In this document: positions 1,746-45,285 of the stretch, in pieces
How positions within the stretch are numbered: position 1 is the stretch's first letter
Layout of the letters: every line of letters begins with the position of its first letter
Assembly (NCBI GenBank): GCA_902602765.1
Contig: CACKSH010000005.1
Location: 1-64,000 of the forward strand
DNA length: 64,000 bases
Source of the DNA: Paracoccaceae bacterium
Lineage (GTDB): Bacteria > Pseudomonadota > Alphaproteobacteria > Rhodobacterales > Rhodobacteraceae
Reading direction: 5' to 3'
The notes under the pieces: generated by a model
Told to the model about the DNA's origin: nothing
Seen by the model: only the letters and a program-made list of their open reading frames with translations
The model's database searches: none
Translations under genes and position numbers: made by a program

Positions 1746-3005
1746 TTACGTTTTAATTAGAGCATCCAATTTTAAATTTGAGCTTGTAGCTATGGAACCA
1801 TTTTGAATGAACTGTTCATGGTTTTCTTCGATTTTATTTAAATCATATTCATAATTTACCATAGCCCCCAATGACTGTTCCAAGCCCTTATTGGAAATGT
1901 CTGCATTTGCATGAACATCATAAATTTGTGCACCATTACCCAAATGAAAACGTGCAACCGGATCTTGAGGCAACCCATTTTCTTTTTTCGCAGTTAGCAA
2001 ATAGTCCCCGGCTAGTTGTCGAACAACTTCCTCTTTAGTATTATTGGTAGGCATCTCGTTGTCATTATAAGTTTGTTTTTGTGATCTCAGCCATTTCCGG
2101 AAAGTTGGTATAGGTGATAGGGTAACAAATTTTTCCAACCCTGAAAATTCTTGGCGAAGTTCTGCAGCGACTTGTTTGATGAGCAAGTTTCCAAATGAAA
2201 TTCCTGACAAACCTTTCTGACAGTTTGATATTGAGTAAAAAACGGCAACTTTGGTCTCTGCAGCTTCTTGAGGTTCCCGGTCATTCGCAAGTAATTGCTG
2301 AATTGACGATGGTACTTTTGCAGTTAATGCTACCTCAACGAAAATAAGTGGCTCATTTGGCATGCTGGGATGAAAAAAAGCGAAACACCGCCGATCCTTC
2401 GGGTACAAACGTCTTCGTAATTCGTCCCAGTCTCCGATTGCATGGACAGCTTCATATTCGACAATTTTTTCTAGAATACTCGCTGGAGTTTCCCAGCTAA
2501 TTTGGCGCAGAACTAGAAACCCTCTATTGAACCAGCCTCGAAGTAAATGTTGGAAATCTAGATCGGTGCGTTCTAACTCTGGGTTTTCATATAATACGTC
2601 CAATAAATCAGTGCGCATTTTAACTAAAGCAAGTGTTGCACCGTCTGGCTGGTTCAGTCGTCTAAGTAACTCCAACCTTTTAGGTTCTGATAATTGGCTT
2701 ATCGCGCTATAATTTTGGGGATTATCATCCGACTGGTATGTTGTAATGGCTTCTTGAAGATCAGAAATGTTAATCTCTAGTACATCGTTCAAAAACTTAA
2801 AAAACTCAAGTTTTTTCTCTTTTTCAAAAGTATCGTAAATAGTCAGTATAGAACCTGCCAATGATAAGCCAGATACTTCGCCCTCGGTATCTAAAAGAGC
2901 GATACAAAGGTCATTTATCGAACGCTGATCTTTATTAGAGCGTTTACTAACACTACGCTCAAACAATGTATTAAGAATATCGCTCAAAAAACTACGGTCT
3001 AACAT
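1746..3005 (-). CDS. matA: Malonyl-CoA decarboxylase
   Basis: A 419-residue malonyl-CoA decarboxylase (MCD family), which converts malonyl-CoA to acetyl-CoA and CO2. The first ~170 residues form the helical N-terminal domain. The C-terminal acyltransferase-fold domain carries FFHPSMPNEPLIFVEVALT near residue 215, with the Ser-Pro region of the family. RFHLGNGAQIYDVHANAD near residue 353 contains the conserved catalytic histidine, and the sequence ends in the usual GAMVNYEY block. It is the first gene of a two-gene minus-strand operon with the malonyl-CoA synthetase. No malonate transporter lies next to it in this window. Confidence 0.93.
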   Translation of the reverse strand: MLDRSFLSDILNTLFERSVSKRSNKDQRSINDLCIALLDTEGEVSGLSLAGSILTIYDTFEKEKKLEFFKFLNDVLEINISDLQEAITTYQSDDNPQNYSAISQLSEPKRLELLRRLNQPDGATLALVKMRTDLLDVLYENPELERTDLDFQHLLRGWFNRGFLVLRQISWETPASILEKIVEYEAVHAIGDWDELRRRLYPKDRRCFAFFHPSMPNEPLIFVEVALTAKVPSSIQQLLANDREPQEAAETKVAVFYSISNCQKGLSGISFGNLLIKQVAAELRQEFSGLEKFVTLSPIPTFRKWLRSQKQTYNDNEMPTNNTKEEVVRQLAGDYLLTAKKENGLPQDPVARFHLGNGAQIYDVHANADISNKGLEQSLGAMVNYEYDLNKIEENHEQFIQNGSIATSSNLKLDALIKT

Positions 3006-3200
3006 TCAATCTATTTCTCAACTCTAGTTAAAGTAACTTTTGCACACATTTAATAAATGAGAATTTACTTAATTATGCACAGAGTTAAACAAGTATAAAT
3101 GTATTGCAATATCTCAAGATTCTGACACTACGTAATTTTCATTGGATGTAGAAAACTAAATTTTTGCTTGCTAAATTGTAAGCATAATGGAGGTATTTTT

Positions 3201-3554
3201 ATGGATCAAAATTTAAGAGCATCTATTCAAGCAAGTACATTTTACTATTTTATGATAGGGGTGGCGATTGTTACTATTTCTCAGCTGTCGACAATGATGG
3301 TAATCGTATTTGCTGATATCGAGGGAAAGGAGAATGTAGTAGCCGCTTCAGTGATTGGACCGTGTTTAATTGGTGCTTTTGGGATCATACGGTTACTCAC
3401 AAATATGACATTGTTAGTAAGTGATATGGATGATGAAATGAAAAGCTCAAACTATGGAAGTGCTATGCAGTCAATTCCGTTTCCAATCTTAAAAATAATT
3501 TTTGCATTTATTTTTATTATAATCGCCGTAATTCAATTAGGTGCTATATATTAA
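3201..3554 (+). CDS. Small integral membrane protein of unknown function
   Basis: About 117 residues, not assigned to a known family. The ATG at 3201 is preferred because GGAGG (3189-3193) sits 7 bases upstream; a TTG 33 bases earlier lacks such a site. Three hydrophobic stretches are visible: around residues 11-32, 41-63 and 94-115. A polar loop rich in Asp, Met and Ser (SDMDDEMKSS) lies between the second and third. It is followed 54 bases later by a fatty acid desaturase gene on the same strand, so a membrane-lipid role is possible but rests only on position. Confidence 0.75.
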   Translation: MDQNLRASIQASTFYYFMIGVAIVTISQLSTMMVIVFADIEGKENVVAASVIGPCLIGAFGIIRLLTNMTLLVSDMDDEMKSSNYGSAMQSIPFPILKIIFAFIFIIIAVIQLGAIY

Positions 3555-3608
3555 ATTATATTATTCGTTAATTTTTGGGAAGCTACTTGAACTTTAAGGT
3601 TTTTGACA

Positions 3609-4667
3609 ATGATTCGTGATTACAGCTTATTGGGCCTTTCTGCAAAGGAGGCCGAGGAAAAGGGATTAGCTGCTGCAAAATGGTATCATAGCGATATCTC
3701 AAGAGAAGATATGAAAGAACTTATGCAGCGGAGAGATCTGCCTGCTATTAAAGATACTTTGATATATTACCTTTTACTTTTATCATCAGCGATTCTCGCT
3801 GTATTGCTCTGGGGTACTCTTTACTGTATCCCTTTTTGGCTGGTTTATTCTTTGTTATATACTGCCGGTGCCGACAGTAGGTGGCATGAGGCTGGGCACA
3901 GAACGGCATTTAAAACCCAGTGGATGAATAATTTTGTTTATCAAATTGCTTGTTTTATGCTTTTTCGGAACCCTATTTTATGGCGGTGGAGCCACTCAAG
4001 ACATCATACAGACACAATTATTGTAGGCCGGGATGCTGAAATAGTAACTATGAGGCCACCAGATCTTTTTAAAGTTGGCATGCTGTTCTTTGGTCTTCAC
4101 ACTTTTGAAGGTTTGAAAGCAACTTTCCGTCACGCAGTACAAGGGTTAAATGAGGAGGAGAGAGAATTCACGCCTCCTCAATATGTTGAAGAGGCACACA
4201 AAATAGCAAGAGTTTGGGTTTTAATAATGATTCTTGTGGTGCTTTCAGCATTTATCACAACCTCTATTTTGCCACTGATGCTAATAGGATTTGGCCCCGC
4301 TGTTTTAGGTTCTTGGCATCTCATTATGACGGGTTTGCTTCAACATACTGGTCTGGCCGATAATGTCCTTGACCACAGGTTGAACACTCGGACAGTTTAT
4401 ATGAACCCTTTCAGTAGATTTATATATTGGAATATGAATTATCACGTTGAGCATCATATGTTTCCTATGGTTCCGTATCATAATCTTCCACGACTACATC
4501 AATTGATTAAACATGATTTACCAGAACCCAACTATGGTTTCATAGATGGTTTGAAAGAGGTATTCTATGCTTTAAGACGGCAGCTAAGTGATCCTGAGTA
4601 TCGGATCAGTAGGGAGCTTCCGTCGACTGCAAAGCCCTACAACCATCATTTATCAGACGCTGTTTAA
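3609..4667 (+). CDS. Membrane fatty acid desaturase family protein
   Basis: An integral-membrane di-iron desaturase/hydroxylase of about 352 residues. The three histidine clusters are HEAGH (near residue 98), HSRHH (near 131) and NYHVEHH (near 278), matching the HxxxH / HxxHH / HxxHH pattern that binds the iron pair. Hydrophobic segments occur at about 50-85 and 200-245. The start at 3609 has a TAAGG element about 9 bases upstream; an upstream TTG would add only two residues. The substrate cannot be read from the sequence: fatty acyl, carotenoid and other lipid substrates occur in this superfamily. It runs convergently into the ribokinase-like gene. Confidence 0.9.
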   Translation: MIRDYSLLGLSAKEAEEKGLAAAKWYHSDISREDMKELMQRRDLPAIKDTLIYYLLLLSSAILAVLLWGTLYCIPFWLVYSLLYTAGADSRWHEAGHRTAFKTQWMNNFVYQIACFMLFRNPILWRWSHSRHHTDTIIVGRDAEIVTMRPPDLFKVGMLFFGLHTFEGLKATFRHAVQGLNEEEREFTPPQYVEEAHKIARVWVLIMILVVLSAFITTSILPLMLIGFGPAVLGSWHLIMTGLLQHTGLADNVLDHRLNTRTVYMNPFSRFIYWNMNYHVEHHMFPMVPYHNLPRLHQLIKHDLPEPNYGFIDGLKEVFYALRRQLSDPEYRISRELPSTAKPYNHHLSDAV

Positions 4668-4707: not shown

Positions 4708-5628
4708 TTATTTAATTAGTGTGTCTATTTCATGTCTATCGGGCATTGACGGGGCTGTACCCTGTCGGGTCACTGAAATGCTTGCTGTCGCGCATGCAAA
4801 ACGAAGTGCTTTATCAATTGGCATTTCCTCTGCTAAAGCCACGGCAAGTCCCCCGTTAAATGCGTCTCCAGCACCAGTTGTTTCAACTACAGGCCCAACC
4901 TCATATGATGGTTGATGGATTATTTGGTTATTATCTTTAAACAATGCACCTTGTTCCCCAAGCGTAATCACTGCTGCGCTGGCACCTTTTTCAAGTAACT
5001 TACCTGCTGCAATTTCCGCATCATTAATAGATTTTACAGGTGTTCCTGTAATCTGCTCTGCTTCTATTTCGTTTGGGGTAACAAAATCACATAATTTTAG
5101 AATATTTTCTCCTAATGGCTGCGCAGGAGCAGGATTTAATATTGTAATTGCGCCTCCGTCTTTTGCAAAAGAAAGTGCTGTACCCGCAGCATCAAGTGAC
5201 TGCTCAAGTTGTGTCATAAAGACCCGAGACCCTTGAATTAGTTCTTTATTAGCAGTTATGTCATCATCATTTATATTCGCAGCTGCTCCAGGGCTTACGA
5301 TGATCGCATTATTTCCAGTCTTGTCTTCTATGAATATATATGCTGCCCCAGTATAGCTGTCAGAATACTGTGTTACGTGTGGTGTTATGCCTGACTTTTC
5401 CCAAAGGCTTATGGCCATGTTAGCAAAATCATCTTTCCCGAGGCGTGAAATAAAATGTACATTACCCCCGGCTAACGCAGCCGCGACAGCTTGGTTGGAT
5501 CCTTTGCCTCCAGGTCCTAGTGAGAATTCATTTCCTATTATTGTTTCACCTATATTAGGCTGGCGTGATGCGCGGTATGCTGTATCCGCGACAAAGACCC
5601 CAAGAATTACAATATCTTTATTTGACAT
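4708..5628 (-). CDS. rbsK: Ribokinase-family sugar kinase (PfkB family)
   Basis: A 306-residue PfkB-family kinase close to ribokinase, which phosphorylates ribose at O5 with ATP. Both family signatures are present: GGKGSNQAVAAA near residue 40 and TTGAGDAFNGGLA near 250, which contains the catalytic Asp and anion hole. It is the third gene of a minus-strand run (ABC ATPase, FucU-type mutarotase, kinase), with 6 bases between the mutarotase stop and this start. That pairing of mutarotase and kinase is typical of free-sugar uptake modules. A second ribokinase-like gene lies at 15594-16499, so the two probably differ in substrate. Confidence 0.88.
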   Translation of the reverse strand: MSNKDIVILGVFVADTAYRASRQPNIGETIIGNEFSLGPGGKGSNQAVAAALAGGNVHFISRLGKDDFANMAISLWEKSGITPHVTQYSDSYTGAAYIFIEDKTGNNAIIVSPGAAANINDDDITANKELIQGSRVFMTQLEQSLDAAGTALSFAKDGGAITILNPAPAQPLGENILKLCDFVTPNEIEAEQITGTPVKSINDAEIAAGKLLEKGASAAVITLGEQGALFKDNNQIIHQPSYEVGPVVETTGAGDAFNGGLAVALAEEMPIDKALRFACATASISVTRQGTAPSMPDRHEIDTLIK

Positions 5629-5634
5629 TTTGGA

Positions 5635-6087
5635 TCACTCTTCTGGTGGTATGACACCTTTACGAAGCATAAAGCACCCATAAAAGCGTCTTTCGCCAGT
5701 CTGTATGACAGCATAACTGGTTTTTGCAAAATCATAAAAAGCAAAGCGCTCAATTGAAATCATCGGTCTATTTTGCTCATCATTTCTTATAATTAATTGT
5801 TGTACTTCTTCTTGGACTGGAGGCAGTTTGTCTGGTTCACCCACGATCTCCATTCTACCAGCGAAATCATCAACAAATGTATCTAGCGGCATGACCGAGA
5901 GAATAGCGTCTATTGCCTCTGCGGCACTTAAATTTTCCATCCTTAATAGTTCCCCATAAACTGTAGATCTTGATATTGAGTCTGAGGGAAAATTCGTATC
6001 GGCTACTATTAGAACGTCGCCGTGCCCCATTAATCGAAGTGCATGAAGAACTTCTGCGTTTAATCTATTATCTATTCCTTTAAGCAT
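5635..6087 (-). CDS. fucU: RbsD/FucU-family sugar mutarotase
   Basis: A 150-residue RbsD/FucU fold protein that interconverts sugar anomers. The N-terminal ALRLMGHGDVLIVADTNFP contains the conserved His and Asp of the family. The C-terminal block FYDFAKTSYAVIQTGERRFY resembles FucU more than RbsD. The assignment to L-fucose mutarotase is supported by the L-fucose oxidation enzymes at 14.8-22.5 kb. It lies between the ABC ATPase gene (24 bases upstream) and the ribokinase-like gene. RbsD activity on ribose is the main alternative given that neighbour. Confidence 0.87.
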   Translation of the reverse strand: MLKGIDNRLNAEVLHALRLMGHGDVLIVADTNFPSDSISRSTVYGELLRMENLSAAEAIDAILSVMPLDTFVDDFAGRMEIVGEPDKLPPVQEEVQQLIIRNDEQNRPMISIERFAFYDFAKTSYAVIQTGERRFYGCFMLRKGVIPPEE

Positions 6088-6111
6088 TAGCGGCCTCCTT
6101 AAATAAAAGGT

Positions 6112-7179
6112 TTAAGTTATACTCTGTCCTTTTTCTGAATCGAATATGTGCATATTTTCAGGATTCACAGTTAAATGAAGTGTTTCTCCCACTGCAAAGT
6201 TACGTCGTTCACGCGAAACTAGTGTTATCTCTGATCCTTCTTTATCTCGAAGGACAACATGCGTTTCTGGGCCAGTTGGTTCTATTACAGAAGTAGTTGC
6301 AGTGATCCCCGCATCAGTTATCATTAAGTTTTCTGGGCGTACGCCAATTTTTATTTTCTGACCAGCGGAAACATGTTTTGTTTCTTTTAATGGAAGAGTA
6401 CCACCTTTAAGACGCGCAACTAATTTATTTTCGTGCACTTCAACATTCCCACTGAAGAAATTCATGGCTGGGGATCCAATGAAACCGGCGACAAACTCAT
6501 TTGCCGGATTATCGTAAAGGTCTAACGGGGAGCCAATTTGTTCGATAACACCGTTTTGTAAAACAACAATTTTATCAGCCATTGTCATAGCCTCAATTTG
6601 ATCATGGGTTACGTAAATAGTTGTTGTTTTTAAGCGTTGGTGCAGTTCTCTTATTTCTGTTCGCATTTGCACGCGAAGTTTTGCGTCTAGATTAGAAAGT
6701 GGTTCGTCAAAAAGAAAAACTTGCGGATCTCGCACAATTGCTCTCCCCATCGCTACACGTTGGCGTTGGCCACCAGATAAAGCTCTTGGATATCTATCTA
6801 AATATGGGATTAGCCCCAAAATTTCTGCTGCCTTTTGCACCCTATCTTCAATATCATTTTTTGATAATCCCTTCATTCGAAGGGAGAAAGAAATATTACC
6901 TCGCACAGTTTTATGGGGGTATAACGCGTAGTTCTGAAAAACCATGGCGATGTCGCGCTCGGCTGGAGGGAGATTGTTAACTAAGCGCTCGTTAATATGA
7001 ATAGTTCCTCCACTTATGCTTTCTAAACCTGCTATCATTCTTAACAAGGTGGATTTTCCGCATCCAGAGGGGCCTACTAAAACCACAAATTCACCGTCGT
7101 GTATATCGATGTCTAAGCCATGTAAAACTTGCAGCTCATCGTAGGATTTTTTTAAATCGCGAACTGTAACCTCTGCCAT
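6112..7179 (-). CDS. Sugar ABC transporter ATP-binding protein (UgpC/MsmK type)
   Basis: A cytoplasmic ATPase of about 355 residues that should power the ABC importer encoded divergently at 7387-11202. It shows Walker A GPSGCGKST, signature LSGGQRQRVAMGRA, Walker B VFLFDEPLSNLD and the switch histidine in YVTHDQIEAM. A C-terminal TOBE-type regulatory domain (from ~235) carries GVRPENL. The ATG at 7179 is preferred: GAAAGG lies about 10 bases upstream and MAEVTVRDLKK is the usual N-terminus. An in-frame TTG at 7197 would add six residues. It heads the operon with the mutarotase and ribokinase genes and faces the operator-like sequence at 7251-7265. Confidence 0.92.
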   Translation of the reverse strand: MAEVTVRDLKKSYDELQVLHGLDIDIHDGEFVVLVGPSGCGKSTLLRMIAGLESISGGTIHINERLVNNLPPAERDIAMVFQNYALYPHKTVRGNISFSLRMKGLSKNDIEDRVQKAAEILGLIPYLDRYPRALSGGQRQRVAMGRAIVRDPQVFLFDEPLSNLDAKLRVQMRTEIRELHQRLKTTTIYVTHDQIEAMTMADKIVVLQNGVIEQIGSPLDLYDNPANEFVAGFIGSPAMNFFSGNVEVHENKLVARLKGGTLPLKETKHVSAGQKIKIGVRPENLMITDAGITATTSVIEPTGPETHVVLRDKEGSEITLVSRERRNFAVGETLHLTVNPENMHIFDSEKGQSIT

Positions 7180-39839: not shown

Positions 39840-39919
39840 CATTTCTGGACGGGAGGTTTATTTTGTGCTTCGGTTAAAGTTACCATAGTTAAATTTCAAT
39901 AAGTATAAATATCTTAATA

Positions 39920-39995
<76 letters not shown>

Positions 39996-40228
39996 AACTT
40001 TTGAGCAATAGTGATTTACCCCATATTTACTGCCTGTTTAGCCATATACCTTATGAAGTTGTAAAATATAATTAGGCTATTTAATAAAAAGTTTCATTCT
40101 ATATTTCAAAACCGTAGGTTCGTCTTCAAGCTAAGGATTTTTAGAAGGTTTGGTTAATCAAACGAATCTTAGTATCAAGTATCAATGATCCAATTAAAGC
40201 GAAATAAGTCGCATTACTTTTATATTGA

Positions 40229-40459
40229 TGTTGTAACGAGAATTGTCGGCATAACGCGATGGTTACAGTTACTTCCTTGCTTGAAGAATATGGCGAAGAG
40301 ATGATCTCTGATGAGGTCTTGCGTAGAGCTAGATGTACCAAATGTGGCTTTCAAGGAAGTAATTAGATGCGGCTTGTGTATGTTGGCAATAGTGCTTTGG
40401 CTCAGACTGGGAGCGCAATAAACAGCGATAAAATCAAAGACGTTGAGGTATATTGGTAA
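40229..40459 (+). pseudogene. Decayed zinc-ribbon protein gene
   Basis: A single reading frame encodes TGT TGT AAC GAG AAT TGT ... CAT, then an ATG at 40259 and a run ending LRRARCTKCGFQGSN. An in-frame TAG follows at 40364-40366. It continues with MRLVYVGNSALAQTGS and ends at TAA 40457-40459. The Cys-x4-Cys-x2-His spacing upstream and CxxC later resemble the small zinc-ribbon proteins common in Alphaproteobacteria (RARCSKCG ... LVYVG). Stops before the first Cys (TGA 40226-40228) and at 40364 split it, so a full-length product is not made. The 616-base gap after tRNA-Ala (39996-40611) contains nothing else recognisable. Confidence 0.6.
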
Positions 40460-40579
40460 CTAATTGAAACTTTGAAGTAAGATAACTCTGTTTCTTGGAC
40501 ATGCCTATTAAAGAAGCGGTATTAACTATTATTATATTTGTCATTAATCTAGCGTGTATTTGATACCCTAAACTAAGAA

Positions 40580-40590
40580 GCCCTGAGGGC
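40580..40590 (-). terminator. Short hairpin after the small membrane protein gene
   Basis: GCCC/GGGC pair around a 3-base loop, 21 bases past the stop of the minus-strand gene at 40612. It is followed on that strand by TTCTTAGTTT. The stem is only 4 bp and the T-run is interrupted, so this is a weak candidate terminator. Confidence 0.3.
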
Positions 40591-40611
40591 AGTATAACTG
40601 TAAGCTAATTT

Positions 40612-40881
40612 TTACTTTCTAAGCTTGTTTCTTTTTAGTAATGCCATGATAAATAGTAGAATTTGAACTAACAGAGTAATTGTTACTATAAGTTGAACAT
40701 ATTCCGTTTTTAACGAACTGACCACAGTACCGTAGAGTATCCATAGAAAAAGTGACAGTATTGAAAAGTTGAGCCAAACTTTCTTAATTGTTTTCTCTTT
40801 TTCTTGAGCAATTAGCTGTAAATCTTCTTGGTCTCTTTCGTATTTGCGTCTTTTGCGCTGTCTGTCATCGTACTCATTCAT
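40612..40881 (-). CDS. Small two-helix membrane protein of unknown function
   Basis: About 89 residues, no family recognised. The N-terminal third is highly charged (RQRKRRKYERDQED, then AQEKEKTIKK). It is followed by two hydrophobic helices around residues 38-54 and 63-82 and a basic tail (KRNKLRK). The start is uncertain: ATG at 40881 gives MNEYDDRQ, while ATG at 40899 would add six residues, and neither has a clear ribosome site. It lies between the decayed zinc-ribbon gene and the cyclase gene, on the cyclase strand, after a 184-base gap with no other gene. A link to the cyclase is possible but unproven. Confidence 0.6.
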   Translation of the reverse strand: MNEYDDRQRKRRKYERDQEDLQLIAQEKEKTIKKVWLNFSILSLFLWILYGTVVSSLKTEYVQLIVTITLLVQILLFIMALLKRNKLRK

Positions 40882-41083
40882 TCTACAAAGTCTTATCATA
40901 TGAGCATTTTACAATGCTAAGTTCTATATTTTACTAAAGTATCATTTAAAGGCCAAAACCGAGAGTCCTATATACTTAAATAGTCTAAGATTAGTGAGAA
41001 TTAGCAGGACTTTAAGTTTTTCTATTCTCCAGTAAATTTATACTTGTGTACAAATTCAAATTAATTTTCAATGAACTTCCATT

Positions 41084-42619
41084 TTATCCATTGGTGACCC
41101 AAATATAATCTTCATACTTACGGGCGCTAATAGTATTTAAAGGTTTACATTCATCTTGATATTCTTCTGGCCTTTTGCCAATCCATTTTTTAACTTCGCC
41201 CGACTTAAAACAGAACTCACTCTTATGATAGGGGCATAGAATTGTGGCTTTCTCAGTAATTTGGCCGACATCTAATGGTAAATCCATATGCGGACATAGG
41301 TTTTCAATGGCATAAATTTCCCCCTCGTTGATCAGTAGTATTTCTTTTTCATTGAGCATGTATTTCTTCTTTTCGCCTAAACTCAACTCTTCGATTGGCA
41401 AGGTACGAAACCATTTCTTTCCTTCAAATTTTCTTTCAACTTCCGTAATGTTTAATTTTAATGCGCCGCTATTTATGCTACTTACTTCGTGCAACGTAAT
41501 CAAATTACTGGTTCCCCTGAGTTTCAATCTCAAGTAATTTCGGACAGATACTTTATCCTTAATCTGTTCATAAACTGTTTCGGAAACGAGCAATCTAGTA
41601 CCCGCCTCTTTATTGATAGCCTCAATCCTACTTGCGGTATTAACTGTATCTCCGATGACAGTAACTTTTCTATCATCACCGGAGCCTACAGATCCAGAAA
41701 TAACCTCTCCGTAATGTATGCCAATTCTCATATCGAAATCTCTGCCATATGCCTTCTTTAGGTATGACTTGAATTGGTCCATCTCCTTAAGCATTTCAAC
41801 ACTAGCACTCACGGCCCTCAATGCTTGTTGTCTGGATTCTTTTAATCCAAAGATAGCCATAATTGCGTCGCCAATGTAATTATTTACTTCACCTCCATGG
41901 CGTATAATGACTTCCCGCATTATTGAAAAATATCTATTTAAGATGAATATTACATCGTAAGCAGATAATGATTCTGAAAAAGGAGTAAAGCCTTTGATGT
42001 CACAGAAAAGTATCGTAAGATTGCGTATTGTGCCAACAGATTCTAACTTTTGTTCAGTAATTTGGTTATTTAAGTCTGCGTCCCTTTTGTCTAAAAGTAA
42101 CCTGCGAAATGATACATTTCCTTTTAACTTTGTCTGACAACCCAACCTAATATTTGGAGGAAATGAAAGCTTTTGAGCAAGCCGTTCCTCTAATTCACCG
42201 CGTGGATGACAATTCTCTAGTCCATCTAATATTTCAACACGACAAGTAGAGCATTTTCCAGAACCACCACATGCGCTTAAATGAGCAATATTATTTCTCA
42301 AAGAGGCTATCAAAATTGACTCTTCGCTGGTAATATTAATTTCCCTATTATCGGGCTGTACCAGGGCCGAGAAGATTTTTTCATCTTTTGGCAGTTTTAA
42401 ATTGTTATGAGTGCCATCACAAAAAGGACCGTTTGAAGTCTTTTTACAGCCGCATAGATATGCAGTTTCTGTCTGTTTTGCGGTAAACTTCTTGGGGCTA
42501 AATTGAGTTCCTTTGTGACTTCCATCACAAAAAGGTTGATTTCTACTGTTCCCGCAGCTGCACCAAAAGTAATCTGATCCTCCTTCTAGCTGGACAGGAA
42601 AGGGTTTATTTATAGTCAT
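41084..42619 (-). CDS. Nucleotide cyclase with CDGSH, [2Fe-2S] ferredoxin and Rieske domains
   Basis: About 511 residues with an unusual series of domains. Residues 20-35 and 56-71 are two CDGSH motifs (Cys20/22/31-His35; Cys56/58/67-His71). Residues 88-180 form a plant-type [2Fe-2S] ferredoxin domain (Cys117, 123, 126, 161). Residues 200-375 are a class III adenylate/guanylate cyclase with metal Asp207 and Asp251 and the Asn327/Arg331 pair. The usual purine-binding Lys is Asn247 (NNYIGDA) and its partner is Thr320. Residues 400-511 are a Rieske domain (Cys442/His444, Cys462/His465). No membrane segment is seen. It should make cAMP or cGMP under control of redox state or iron. The ATG at 42619 has AGG seven bases upstream; an upstream ATG at 42682 is possible. 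Confidence 0.9.
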   Translation of the reverse strand: MTINKPFPVQLEGGSDYFWCSCGNSRNQPFCDGSHKGTQFSPKKFTAKQTETAYLCGCKKTSNGPFCDGTHNNLKLPKDEKIFSALVQPDNREINITSEESILIASLRNNIAHLSACGGSGKCSTCRVEILDGLENCHPRGELEERLAQKLSFPPNIRLGCQTKLKGNVSFRRLLLDKRDADLNNQITEQKLESVGTIRNLTILFCDIKGFTPFSESLSAYDVIFILNRYFSIMREVIIRHGGEVNNYIGDAIMAIFGLKESRQQALRAVSASVEMLKEMDQFKSYLKKAYGRDFDMRIGIHYGEVISGSVGSGDDRKVTVIGDTVNTASRIEAINKEAGTRLLVSETVYEQIKDKVSVRNYLRLKLRGTSNLITLHEVSSINSGALKLNITEVERKFEGKKWFRTLPIEELSLGEKKKYMLNEKEILLINEGEIYAIENLCPHMDLPLDVGQITEKATILCPYHKSEFCFKSGEVKKWIGKRPEEYQDECKPLNTISARKYEDYIWVTNG

Positions 42620-42756
42620 AGAAACACCTGTAATTATGTCGGTATTAGTAAAGTAGTCTAATCTTTGGAAATAGTAAGGCATTAACCTTGCCTATAGTGT
42701 TTTCGGTAATCTTAAATTAAAAATGGATAATTAAATTAGCATAATTAATTATTTGG

Positions 42757-45285
42757 TTATTGGGACCTAAGAAATTTAGCTGGACTCACCTTAAGAGATT
42801 TTATTGCAAAATATAAACCTGCCAATAAATTTGCTACTAATCCGCCCGTGATAACCAAAAATACGGTCGGCCAAATTATTTGAAAAGATAGTTCGAGGAC
42901 ATATGTCGTTATTCCCCAAGCTCCACAAATTGCAAAAAATATTGCCACGCAACCTGCTGTAGCTCCTATAAATGAAAAACGAATTATATAACTAATAATT
43001 AGCTCCTTTTGCGTCGCTCCCAAAGTTTTTAGTATTGCCGCATCGTATGACCTTGCACTTTGTCCAGAAGCTGCTGACCCCAAAAGAACTAGAAATCCTG
43101 TAATCAATGTAGTAAGTGCACCATAGGAACTCGCAGTAGCTATAGAACCTAATAGGTCACTGACCCGCTCAATTACACCTTTCACTTTTATAAGCGTGAT
43201 ATTTGGAAATTTTCTTGCTAACGTGTTAAAAATCCCATTTTCTGACTCAGTATTGGCATAAATTGTTGTAATAAAACTGTGGGGTGCGTTTTTAAGCGCA
43301 CTTGGGTTCATTGCGATAACGAAACCAATTCCAGCAGTTGAGAAGTCTACATTGCGAAGGCTGGTAATTTCTCCGGTAATTTCCTTTCCCATTATATTGA
43401 CTGTTATGCGATCACCAAGCCCAATCCCAAGTTCCTCTGCCTGTTCAGCAGCAAAACTAATTTGGGTTTTTCCTGAATAATTTTTTGGCCAAAGCCGACC
43501 CTCTGTAAGGTTAAACCGTCCTGGTAATTCCTCAAAGTATGTAATGCCCCTATCTCCTCTGATTACCCAGTGATCGCCAGCCACTTCAGATGCTTGTTCA
43601 TTATTTATTTTTGTAATTATTCCACGCAGCATGGGAGCTTCATCAAATGAAGTAACGCCGTTGTAAGAATTCAGAGTCCTTCGTACTTCTTCAATTTGAG
43701 ATTTTTGAATATCAATTACGAAATAAGATGGGGCAACTTTGGGTAAGTCGTTATTGATTGATGTTCTCAGATTACCATCGACCTGACCTATTATGCCAAG
43801 TACTGTTAAGCCTAATCCTATCGCGAGCAATGAGTTAGAAGTTCCTTCTTGTGTGCCTCCCATAGAAGCCAGTGCCCAGCGTGTGGATGGGTGACCATTA
43901 GCAAATCTGGCTAATTTCTTAATTATTGCCATCAAGATACGTGCTGACAGAAATAAAGCTAATACAGCGACTGAAAAACCGAGCGCAAACCAACTTGTAA
44001 GTTTAGGGTTCTGATTAAATAAAGCTGAAGTAAGTAAAAGAATAATTAAGAGGCCCAAGCTCCAGACTAAGTATTTAAAACGTGGTAATCTGTAACTTAA
44101 CAAATTCATTTCGCGAAATAGTGCTGCAGTCTGTATATTTTCACATTTTGATAATGGCCAAAGTGTGAATAATGTTGCGATTATGGCTCCGTATATAGCC
44201 GCCTCATATATTGGTTTTAAAGAAAAAACTATACCAATAGGGATTGGAATAATAACGCTAAGGAAAGGTGCTAAAATATGTGGTGCACTCGCTCCAAGGC
44301 CCAAGCCCAAAGCTATTCCAAGCAAAGATAATATAGATAGCTGAATGAAATAAGTCATAAAAATTTGGAAATTTGTGGCGCCTAAACTCCTTAAGACAGC
44401 GATAGTAGCAATTTTTCTGTTAAGGTAACTTTTAACCGCTGATCCGATCCCAACACCCCCAACTATGAGACCTGCAAGACCAACCATTATAAAAAAGGCT
44501 GACAATCTGGTGACAAACTCAGAAATACCGGGTGCACCATTTCTGGAGTCTCTCCAACGCATGCCACTATTTTCAAATTTTGTTTTCGCAAGAGTTTTGA
44601 GAGTATCAAAGTTTTCACTCGGAGCTATCATTAGCCTATATTTTGCTGAAAAAAGTGTTCCTGGAGCAATTAATCCAGATGTTTTCAAATCTTCAGTTTT
44701 TAAAATTGTTCGGGGTCCTAAACCAAAATTAGCGCCAGCATCATCGGGAGAAGTGATAATGATATCTCTCAAAATAAATTCGGTAAGTCCAAGACTGAAG
44801 GAATCGCCGATAGAAATACCTAACCTTGAAACAAGATCGCTTTCCATTATTGCGCTTTTGGGTTGTCTCAATATATCTCGAAGTGCTCGTCCACTGGAAA
44901 GCTGGACGTCTCCGATCAGTGGATATTTATCATCGATAGCCTTTATCTGAGTGAGTGCTGTTTCCTTCTGGCCATCCCTGATGACATTGGCCATCGATCT
45001 AAATTCTAGGATTTCTGACATATTTGCGGATATTGATTTAAGCCAATCCAGTTCTTCAGTATTTGCCAAGCGATAGGTAAATTCTGCTTCTGCATCGCCG
45101 CCAAGTAACTCAGATCCTTTCTCACCAATCGCATATTCAATTCCACTCTTAACAGTTCCGACGGCAGTAATTGTTCCAACGCCGAGCACCAAACATATTA
45201 GAAATATACGGAACCCGGAAATGCCTGAACGTAGTTCGCGGATCGCCATTTGTGCTGAGAATTTGAGATTTTCAAAAATAATCAC
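42757..45285 (-). CDS. ybbP: FtsX-like ABC transporter permease (YbbP type)
   Basis: An 842-residue inner-membrane permease with two FtsX repeats. One helix follows the N-terminus (about 25-45). A periplasmic MacB-like domain runs to ~255, several helices to ~470, a second periplasmic domain to ~715, and three C-terminal helices. AVLRSLGATNFQIF and AILKTLGATQKELI are the paired cytoplasmic coupling motifs of FtsX repeats. The start overlaps the stop of the ATPase gene by 4 bases. In E. coli the same partners ybbA-ybbP stand divergent to tesA. The transported molecule is unproven, with lipid-related cargo suspected. Confidence 0.9.
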   Translation of the reverse strand: MIIFENLKFSAQMAIRELRSGISGFRIFLICLVLGVGTITAVGTVKSGIEYAIGEKGSELLGGDAEAEFTYRLANTEELDWLKSISANMSEILEFRSMANVIRDGQKETALTQIKAIDDKYPLIGDVQLSSGRALRDILRQPKSAIMESDLVSRLGISIGDSFSLGLTEFILRDIIITSPDDAGANFGLGPRTILKTEDLKTSGLIAPGTLFSAKYRLMIAPSENFDTLKTLAKTKFENSGMRWRDSRNGAPGISEFVTRLSAFFIMVGLAGLIVGGVGIGSAVKSYLNRKIATIAVLRSLGATNFQIFMTYFIQLSILSLLGIALGLGLGASAPHILAPFLSVIIPIPIGIVFSLKPIYEAAIYGAIIATLFTLWPLSKCENIQTAALFREMNLLSYRLPRFKYLVWSLGLLIILLLTSALFNQNPKLTSWFALGFSVAVLALFLSARILMAIIKKLARFANGHPSTRWALASMGGTQEGTSNSLLAIGLGLTVLGIIGQVDGNLRTSINNDLPKVAPSYFVIDIQKSQIEEVRRTLNSYNGVTSFDEAPMLRGIITKINNEQASEVAGDHWVIRGDRGITYFEELPGRFNLTEGRLWPKNYSGKTQISFAAEQAEELGIGLGDRITVNIMGKEITGEITSLRNVDFSTAGIGFVIAMNPSALKNAPHSFITTIYANTESENGIFNTLARKFPNITLIKVKGVIERVSDLLGSIATASSYGALTTLITGFLVLLGSAASGQSARSYDAAILKTLGATQKELIISYIIRFSFIGATAGCVAIFFAICGAWGITTYVLELSFQIIWPTVFLVITGGLVANLLAGLYFAIKSLKVSPAKFLRSQ

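Follow-up and report, generated by a model that had tools for sequence, protein, structure and literature searches.

A presumably soluble class III nucleotide cyclase joined to predicted CDGSH, ferredoxin and Rieske [2Fe-2S] domains, a candidate sensor of redox and iron-sulfur state

Which signal could be read by a nucleotide cyclase that is embedded, within one polypeptide, among several predicted iron-sulfur sites? The question is raised by a minus-strand gene in the window, i.e., the 64,000-nucleotide stretch of Paracoccaceae DNA analysed here, whose source bacterium is probably marine. The features needed for the argument are listed below, with residues numbered in the 511-residue protein.

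42757..45285, minus strand: FtsX-type ABC permease, directly upstream of the cyclase gene (neighbour scan)
41084..42619, minus strand: gene encoding the 511-aa CDGSH-CDGSH-Fer2-cyclase-Rieske protein, read from Met22 of the 532-aa ORF
42515..42562, minus strand: first CDGSH motif, C20-H35 (CSCGNSRNQPFCDGSH), a predicted cluster site (Pfam, motif and solved-structure match)
42407..42454, minus strand: second CDGSH motif, C56-H71 (CGCKKTSNGPFCDGTH), a predicted cluster site (Pfam, motif and solved-structure match)
42125..42358, minus strand: Fer2 [2Fe-2S] ferredoxin domain, residues 88-165 (Pfam; matches ferredoxin structures)
41501..42028, minus strand: class III nucleotide cyclase domain, residues 198-373 (Pfam; sequence and structure comparison)
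41879..41881, minus strand: codon of Asn247, a position held by Lys in CyaB and by Glu in the guanylyl cyclase Cya2 (alignment)
41183..41413, minus strand: Rieske domain, residues 403-479 (Pfam; matches Rieske ferredoxins)

The longest ORF (41084..42682, minus strand, 532 aa) is free of internal stops. In three genus relatives a stop codon lies 7 or 8 codons 5' of the Met aligned to 42619, and in a fourth (L021) the frame opens at the equivalent Met, so that a start at 42619, which the initial annotation had implied, is favoured and Met22 of the longest ORF is likely the true start codon. The annotation had also worried about a frame error fusing two genes, which is ruled out by a single frame conserved across species, and an assembly chimera was rejected on the same ground. 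The source genome is a 49-contig assembly of 81.7% completeness, and the frame of the relative in G151 (L023:1-1523, the same copy as L039:5001-6460) is interrupted inside the cyclase domain, which may reflect an assembly fault or real decay; both points could be held in favour of separate genes having been joined by assembly or frame error. Against such an artefact stand the identical single frame in independent assemblies of several lineages and a dN/dS near 0.06, and its chance of being right is regarded as negligible. The CDGSH-CDGSH-Fer2-cyclase-Rieske protein is real and conserved.

All the domains that had been assigned from the letters exceed their Pfam cut-offs in a search of the 532-aa ORF, whose coordinates were shifted by 21 to give the 511-aa numbering: zf-CDGSH scores 62.7 bits over two stretches (cut-off 29.5), Fer2 37.2 bits at residues 109-186 (cut-off 21), Guanylate_cyc 99.1 bits at residues 219-394 (cut-off 21.9) and Rieske 58 bits at residues 424-500 (cut-off 20.3). 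The Pfam domains are likewise over cut-off in the five relatives scanned (L028, L034, L035, L036 and L041). None of the 16 NCBIfam families found at E up to 1 reaches its cut-off, so this curated library offers no name for the protein as a whole. Compared with solved structures by sequence, residues 1-78 match the two-motif CDGSH protein 3tbn (E 2e-25) and human CISD3 6avj (9e-19), the Fer2 part the E. coli-type (ISC-type) ferredoxin 1i7h (5e-7) and putidaredoxin (2e-5), the cyclase part Cya2 2w01 (2e-28) and CyaB 3r5g (5e-26), and the Rieske part the ferredoxins of methanesulfonate monooxygenase (8jng, 1e-9) and toluene dioxygenase.

The CDGSH motif, which we take to follow the formula C-x-C-x2-[ST]-x3-P-x-C-D-G-[STA]-H, is present twice in the chain, and the full motif occurs 2 times in the six frames of the window vs 0 times in 60 base shuffles. 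Every expected Cys and His is present in the alignment, in agreement with the earlier claim that all cluster ligands are intact: the predicted ligands are C20, C22, C31 and H35 for the first CDGSH site, C56, C58, C67 and H71 for the second, C117, C123, C126 and C161 for Fer2 (C-x5-C-x2-C-xn-C), and C442, H444, C462 and H465 for Rieske (C-x-H ... C-x2-H). The metal Asp residues D207 and D251, which had also been called intact, are accompanied by the transition-state residues N327 and R331; the role of each ligand and catalytic residue is presumed from family knowledge. Among aligned rows having the respective domain, the ligands are conserved in 12/12 (CDGSH), 39/39 (Fer2) and 14/14 (Rieske), while both metal Asp, Asn327 and Arg331 are invariant in 55/55. 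In L041, which lies outside the 55-row alignment, the codon of the last Rieske His contains an ambiguous base.

The protein is found in 6 of 16 genus genomes, among them its own and G151 with the interrupted frame; the ten others, most of them incomplete and one 96% complete, are without a copy, indicating that members of the genus can do without the gene. Named genomes, when scanned, returned at least 592 stretches and at least 556 relatives, the best 80 of which were taken; 17 of these loci (L025-L041) match through the multi-domain protein and the other 63 mainly over the cyclase. The frame is complete in fourteen of the 17; contig ends truncate L038 and L040, and the remaining locus, L039, is the copy in G151. 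Four of the 17 are the same contigs as genus genomes having the protein. Their record names comprise four Rhodobacteraceae, three SAR116, seven uncultured Alphaproteobacteria, one Rhodospirillaceae, one MarineAlpha2 and one Deltaproteobacteria, 16/17 being named Alphaproteobacteria. The full architecture is rare in sampled genomes: 13/149 family genomes match at E 1e-40, with full length only in the own genome, and 3/385 class genomes match at E 1e-60, with full length in the own genome and in G420 (the genome of L036). In the phylum sample 15/398 genomes match, with full length only in the own genome; in the class and phylum scans, which scored no more than three candidates for each genome, some copies may be missed. 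Phage or viral cargo was rejected, as phages gave no match and none of 20 viral-contig pattern matches encodes a relative; plasmid-borne full copies were rejected too, 155 plasmid records matching at E 1e-30 and none having one place that covers 80% of the query.

Purifying selection has preserved the gene across species. Compared with its two nearest relatives, it has a whole-gene dN/dS of 0.057 and 0.056; by domain, where changes are few and the values rough, the ratio is 0.080/0.235 for CDGSH, 0.118/0.038 for Fer2, 0.008/0.017 for the cyclase and 0.148/0.114 for Rieske. It is 0.045 against L021 and 0.024 against L022, dS being high in both, and for L028 and L030 whole-gene dS is saturated, hence gives no ratio.

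How such an architecture arose can be traced in part by a tree of 46 rows over the Fer2-cyclase core, which is common to the whole tree, built by a quick method with SH-aLRT support only. All 17 rows of the CDGSH branch form one clade with support 100; these rows are not the 17 loci L025-L041, and include L001, L021, L022, L110 and the contig-cut L038. The sister group (support 89 for the group itself and 95 for its union with the CDGSH clade) consists of L111, a Fer2-cyclase without Rieske, and the Fer2-cyclase-Rieske proteins L006, L112 and L125, the last from Rhizobium etli; presumed membrane-anchored Fer2-cyclases lie far from the CDGSH clade. The topology suggests a build-up from Fer2-cyclase to Fer2-cyclase-Rieske, with CDGSH gained in one clade. 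The program warns of long branches, including L111, L112 and L126, so that this order is likely rather than certain, and the place of L111 in the sister group requires that Rieske was lost there or that the history was less simple. Four CDGSH motifs, and thus six predicted clusters, are carried by the proteins of five of the 17 loci, namely L031, L032, L034, L040 and, on a separate branch, L041, whose fourth motif reads CDSSH. The two repeats of the array are identical at 46 to 51 of 54 positions in the first four and at 37/54 in L041. L033 has two motifs though it is 424/435 identical to L034 downstream, and this state may be a repeat collapsed in assembly.

A first structure model had a pLDDT of 62, and its fold search gave cyclases among the 50 matches listed; a better model from the 55-row alignment reached pLDDT 79.4 and pTM 0.48, with Fer2, cyclase and Rieske confident, CDGSH weaker (block means 42-75) and low-confidence linkers at residues 72-79 and 176-194. 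In the model the cyclase homology fold is present: the part around residues 192-388 aligns with CyaB (Z 27.4, rmsd 2.1, 191 aligned), Cya2 (Z 27.3, rmsd 1.7, 192 aligned) and Rv1900c (Z 22.9). The fold comparison is good only over residues 182-384, so that sequence is the basis for assigning the Fer2, Rieske and CDGSH folds, and the domain arrangement is not confidently predicted, so no electron or signal path can be argued from the model.

The closest characterised relative is CyaC of Sinorhizobium meliloti, a redox-regulated class III adenylate cyclase whose cAMP output is reported to be under redox control, and which provides a good precedent for the gating proposed by the initial annotation. 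In the accessible part of the source, CyaC is described with a six-helix anchor that holds two heme B, is redox-sensitive via ubiquinone and is credited with the redox sensing, and its scheme includes a [2Fe-2S] cluster (PMC10463352). In both proteins a [2Fe-2S] part (Fer2) stands in front of the class III cyclase, and residues 110-390 have a 36% identical match in an S. meliloti gene annotated as cyaC. In place of the six-helix diheme anchor of CyaC, the window protein carries two CDGSH motifs at its N-terminal end; a Rieske domain follows the cyclase, and the Lys position is occupied by Asn. Its 87 residues before Fer2, which hold the two CDGSH motifs, are apparently no diheme anchor; in the relatives presumed to be anchored (L007-L018), the compared core is preceded by 258-317 residues.

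Other likenesses are partial. The Fer2-cyclase-Rieske proteins L006 (in G122), L112 (in G778) and L125 (in Rhizobium etli 8C-3) share the domain order and 37-40% identity, but lack CDGSH and have a longer spacing between the Rieske ligand pairs; no functional description of this type was found in the literature searched. The CISD3-type proteins 3tbn and 6avj are matched by residues 1-78 over nearly their whole length, both motifs included, but are small stand-alone proteins rather than fusions. Cya2 (2w01) and CyaB (3r5g) have the same catalytic domain by sequence and fold, with Glu and Lys, respectively, in place of Asn247, and differ in the rest of the protein. A survey of 494 bacterial CDGSH sequences lists, as partners, Rieske_2, Fer4_19, Glu_synthase and ferritin-like domains; the word cyclase is absent from its main text (PMC5859297). 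No description of CDGSH with adenylate cyclase, or of Rieske with cyclase, was found in open-licence literature; PMC4284462 was rejected as a relevant precedent, the cyclase in its accessible part being only a two-hybrid reporter. The earlier claim of novelty stands in part: three cluster types with a cyclase are undescribed in the literature searched, but the Fer2-cyclase-Rieske portion is wider (L006, L112 and L125). As far as searched, the architecture is undescribed, and judged by its domains it belongs with the Fer2-cyclases of the redox-regulated kind, with Rieske and CDGSH as additions.

Proteins that might receive a cyclic nucleotide signal are encoded in the own genome, where three cyclic-nucleotide-binding-domain proteins are over cut-off and four other class III cyclase matches were found. 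Two of the three are short, 185 and 173 aa (G000:C4:5156-5401, L105; G000:C6:103058-103267, L107), with no evident DNA-binding part, and are possible effectors. Two HTH_Crp matches occur in this 81.7% complete genome, neither over cut-off; in the control the model matched 14/14 genomes, archaea included, and is thus unspecific.

The answer that we favour is that the protein is likely a cyclase governed by redox or iron-sulfur state, and probably a one-component sensor in which the output of a soluble class III cyclase is set by [2Fe-2S] clusters. The cyclase would act as a homodimer without membrane anchor, all predicted clusters would be loaded, and output would depend on their oxidation state or occupancy. 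Fer2, which a short conserved linker connects to the cyclase and which all Fer2-cyclase relatives have in common, may regulate it directly, a role that the ferredoxin part of CyaC probably plays as well. Rieske and CDGSH would widen the range of signals by electron transfer to Fer2; alternatively, the labile CDGSH clusters might report cluster supply, NO or oxidant damage. The product, cAMP or less likely cGMP, would be read by the cyclic-nucleotide-binding proteins of the cell. By analogy, redox state, NO, O2 and iron, which the initial annotation had named as gating the cyclase, may all be considered as inputs. This redox-sensor reading is supported by the domains, the conserved ligands, the low dN/dS, the Fer2-cyclase core, the CyaC precedent and the three cyclic-nucleotide-binding proteins; against it speak the exchange of Lys for Asn, the lack of a CRP-type HTH over cut-off in the own genome, the unconfident domain arrangement and the dispensability of the gene in the genus. 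Moreover, redox sensing in CyaC is attributed to the heme-B anchor, which is absent here, so Fer2 of CyaC may not be the switch.

The same domains could be put to use in other ways. The clusters might serve as an integrity gauge rather than as electron carriers, the loss or transfer of a labile CDGSH cluster under iron shortage, NO or peroxide reshaping the protein and switching the cyclase. This is a possible reading, though a somewhat doubtful one: close relatives have two or four CDGSH copies, a variation more easily understood as a dose of exchangeable clusters than as a fixed route for electrons, and no stand-alone CDGSH match was found outside the cyclase gene in the own genome or in the 16 genus genomes, but the equal conservation of the Fer2 and Rieske ligands is left unexplained, and a sister branch without CDGSH makes that part look like an add-on rather than the core switch. 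The accessible part of the CDGSH survey describes such proteins as both stable and cluster-transferring, a point in favour of labile clusters (PMC5859297). Conversely, the roles might be reversed, with the cyclase as the sensor and nucleotide binding or turnover gating electron delivery by Rieske and Fer2 to an unknown partner. The resemblance of these parts to the soluble proteins that carry electrons in dioxygenase and P450-type systems speaks for it, but the cyclase keeps its full catalytic set and neither an oxygenase nor a reductase was found among the neighbours scanned in related loci, which makes this arrangement highly improbable.

A further alternative concerns the product, and holds that the enzyme is a guanylate cyclase, or has mixed specificity, and is linked to the supply of guanine nucleotides. 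ATP-using class III cyclases have Lys at the specificity position and guanylate cyclases usually Glu. Here the pair is Asn247 and Thr320, which is neither the Lys with Asp/Thr of adenylate cyclases nor, at the first position, the Glu that is present in Cya2. Over the 55 rows this position is Lys in 34, Asn in 13 (12 CDGSH rows and L114), Asp in 7 and Leu in 1; Asn is thus found in 12/12 aligned CDGSH rows, and in the other clade copies compared, but is not unique to the clade, being present in L114 and in R. etli L125. That every CDGSH member compared has Asn instead of the ATP-specifying Lys, in a column that is Glu in Cya2, one of the nearest solved cyclases, is in favour of guanylate cyclase activity; the column is not Glu itself, however, Thr320 is found as in most Lys-type relatives, and mycobacterial Rv1900c, with Asn at this position, is reportedly mainly an adenylate cyclase, so that the product cannot be read off the sequence. 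Gene context adds that in L036:3534-8080 a gap of 3 bp separates the cyclase gene from the preceding guaB (IMP dehydrogenase), and guaA (GMP synthase) comes immediately afterwards; both gua genes exceed their NCBIfam cut-offs. L037:1423-4901 has the same order and spacing, and its two neighbours share 93% and 79% identity with their L036 counterparts, the 79% being measured over 155 residues. These flanks are suggestive of a guanine nucleotide link, and in L041 a Ctp-type protease and, two genes downstream, a hypoxanthine phosphoribosyltransferase follow the cyclase gene; the gua context is restricted to two genomes of one subgroup, however, and is absent from the window and the other clades. 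On balance we consider this alternative unlikely. Among other soluble Fer2-cyclases, the short proteins of phylum family f188 (308-313 aa; L113, L115, L117, L119, L120 and L124) have Asp/Ala in place of Lys/Thr, and L118 has Asp/Thr at the two positions.

Extended to the whole clade, the redox-sensor reading would describe a family of cytosolic integrators of iron-sulfur state in ocean bacteria, in which one cyclase reads three [2Fe-2S] types, with four to six clusters per chain and a CDGSH dose tuned by duplication, and reports redox and cluster supply as cyclic nucleotide, possibly cGMP or mixed, where iron is scarce; this broader picture is offered very tentatively. Redox-regulated [2Fe-2S] cyclases are known, and none combining CDGSH, ferredoxin and Rieske clusters was found in the literature searched. 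If true, cluster chemistry (redox, NO and iron supply) would be tied to cyclic nucleotide signalling in one soluble protein, what bacterial CDGSH clusters can sense would be revealed, and a costly eight-iron protein would be seen to persist under purifying selection in bacteria whose relatives, judging from record names, come largely from the open sea.

The remaining gene neighbourhoods are variable. In 4/4 other genus loci examined (L021, L025-L027), as in the window, the cyclase gene comes directly after the FtsX-type permease, both being on one strand, and a methyltransferase lies downstream in L031, L033, L034 and L038, named by the scan in L033 only. No operon partner is conserved across clades, the permease being found in the genus, guaB/guaA in L036 and L037 and other genes elsewhere, which fits a stand-alone sensor. 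A clean empty site was not found in genus genomes without the gene; in G150, G154 and G155 the region downstream of a related permease (50-51% identical) is not syntenic with the window. Downstream of the cyclase gene lie one short ORF in the window (39840-41083), three further ORFs in L025 (6537-10352) and two others in L026 (6537-9976). L035 contains two Fer2-cyclases about 1 kb apart on the same strand (2244-3938 and 4986-6533), one of them of the CDGSH type and the second gene lying upstream. On the Rhizobium etli 8C-3 plasmid (L125:3332-7362), the Fer2-cyclase-Rieske gene adjoins genes for a pcaD-type enol-lactonase and an aromatic-acid transporter, hinting at a link to aromatic catabolism.
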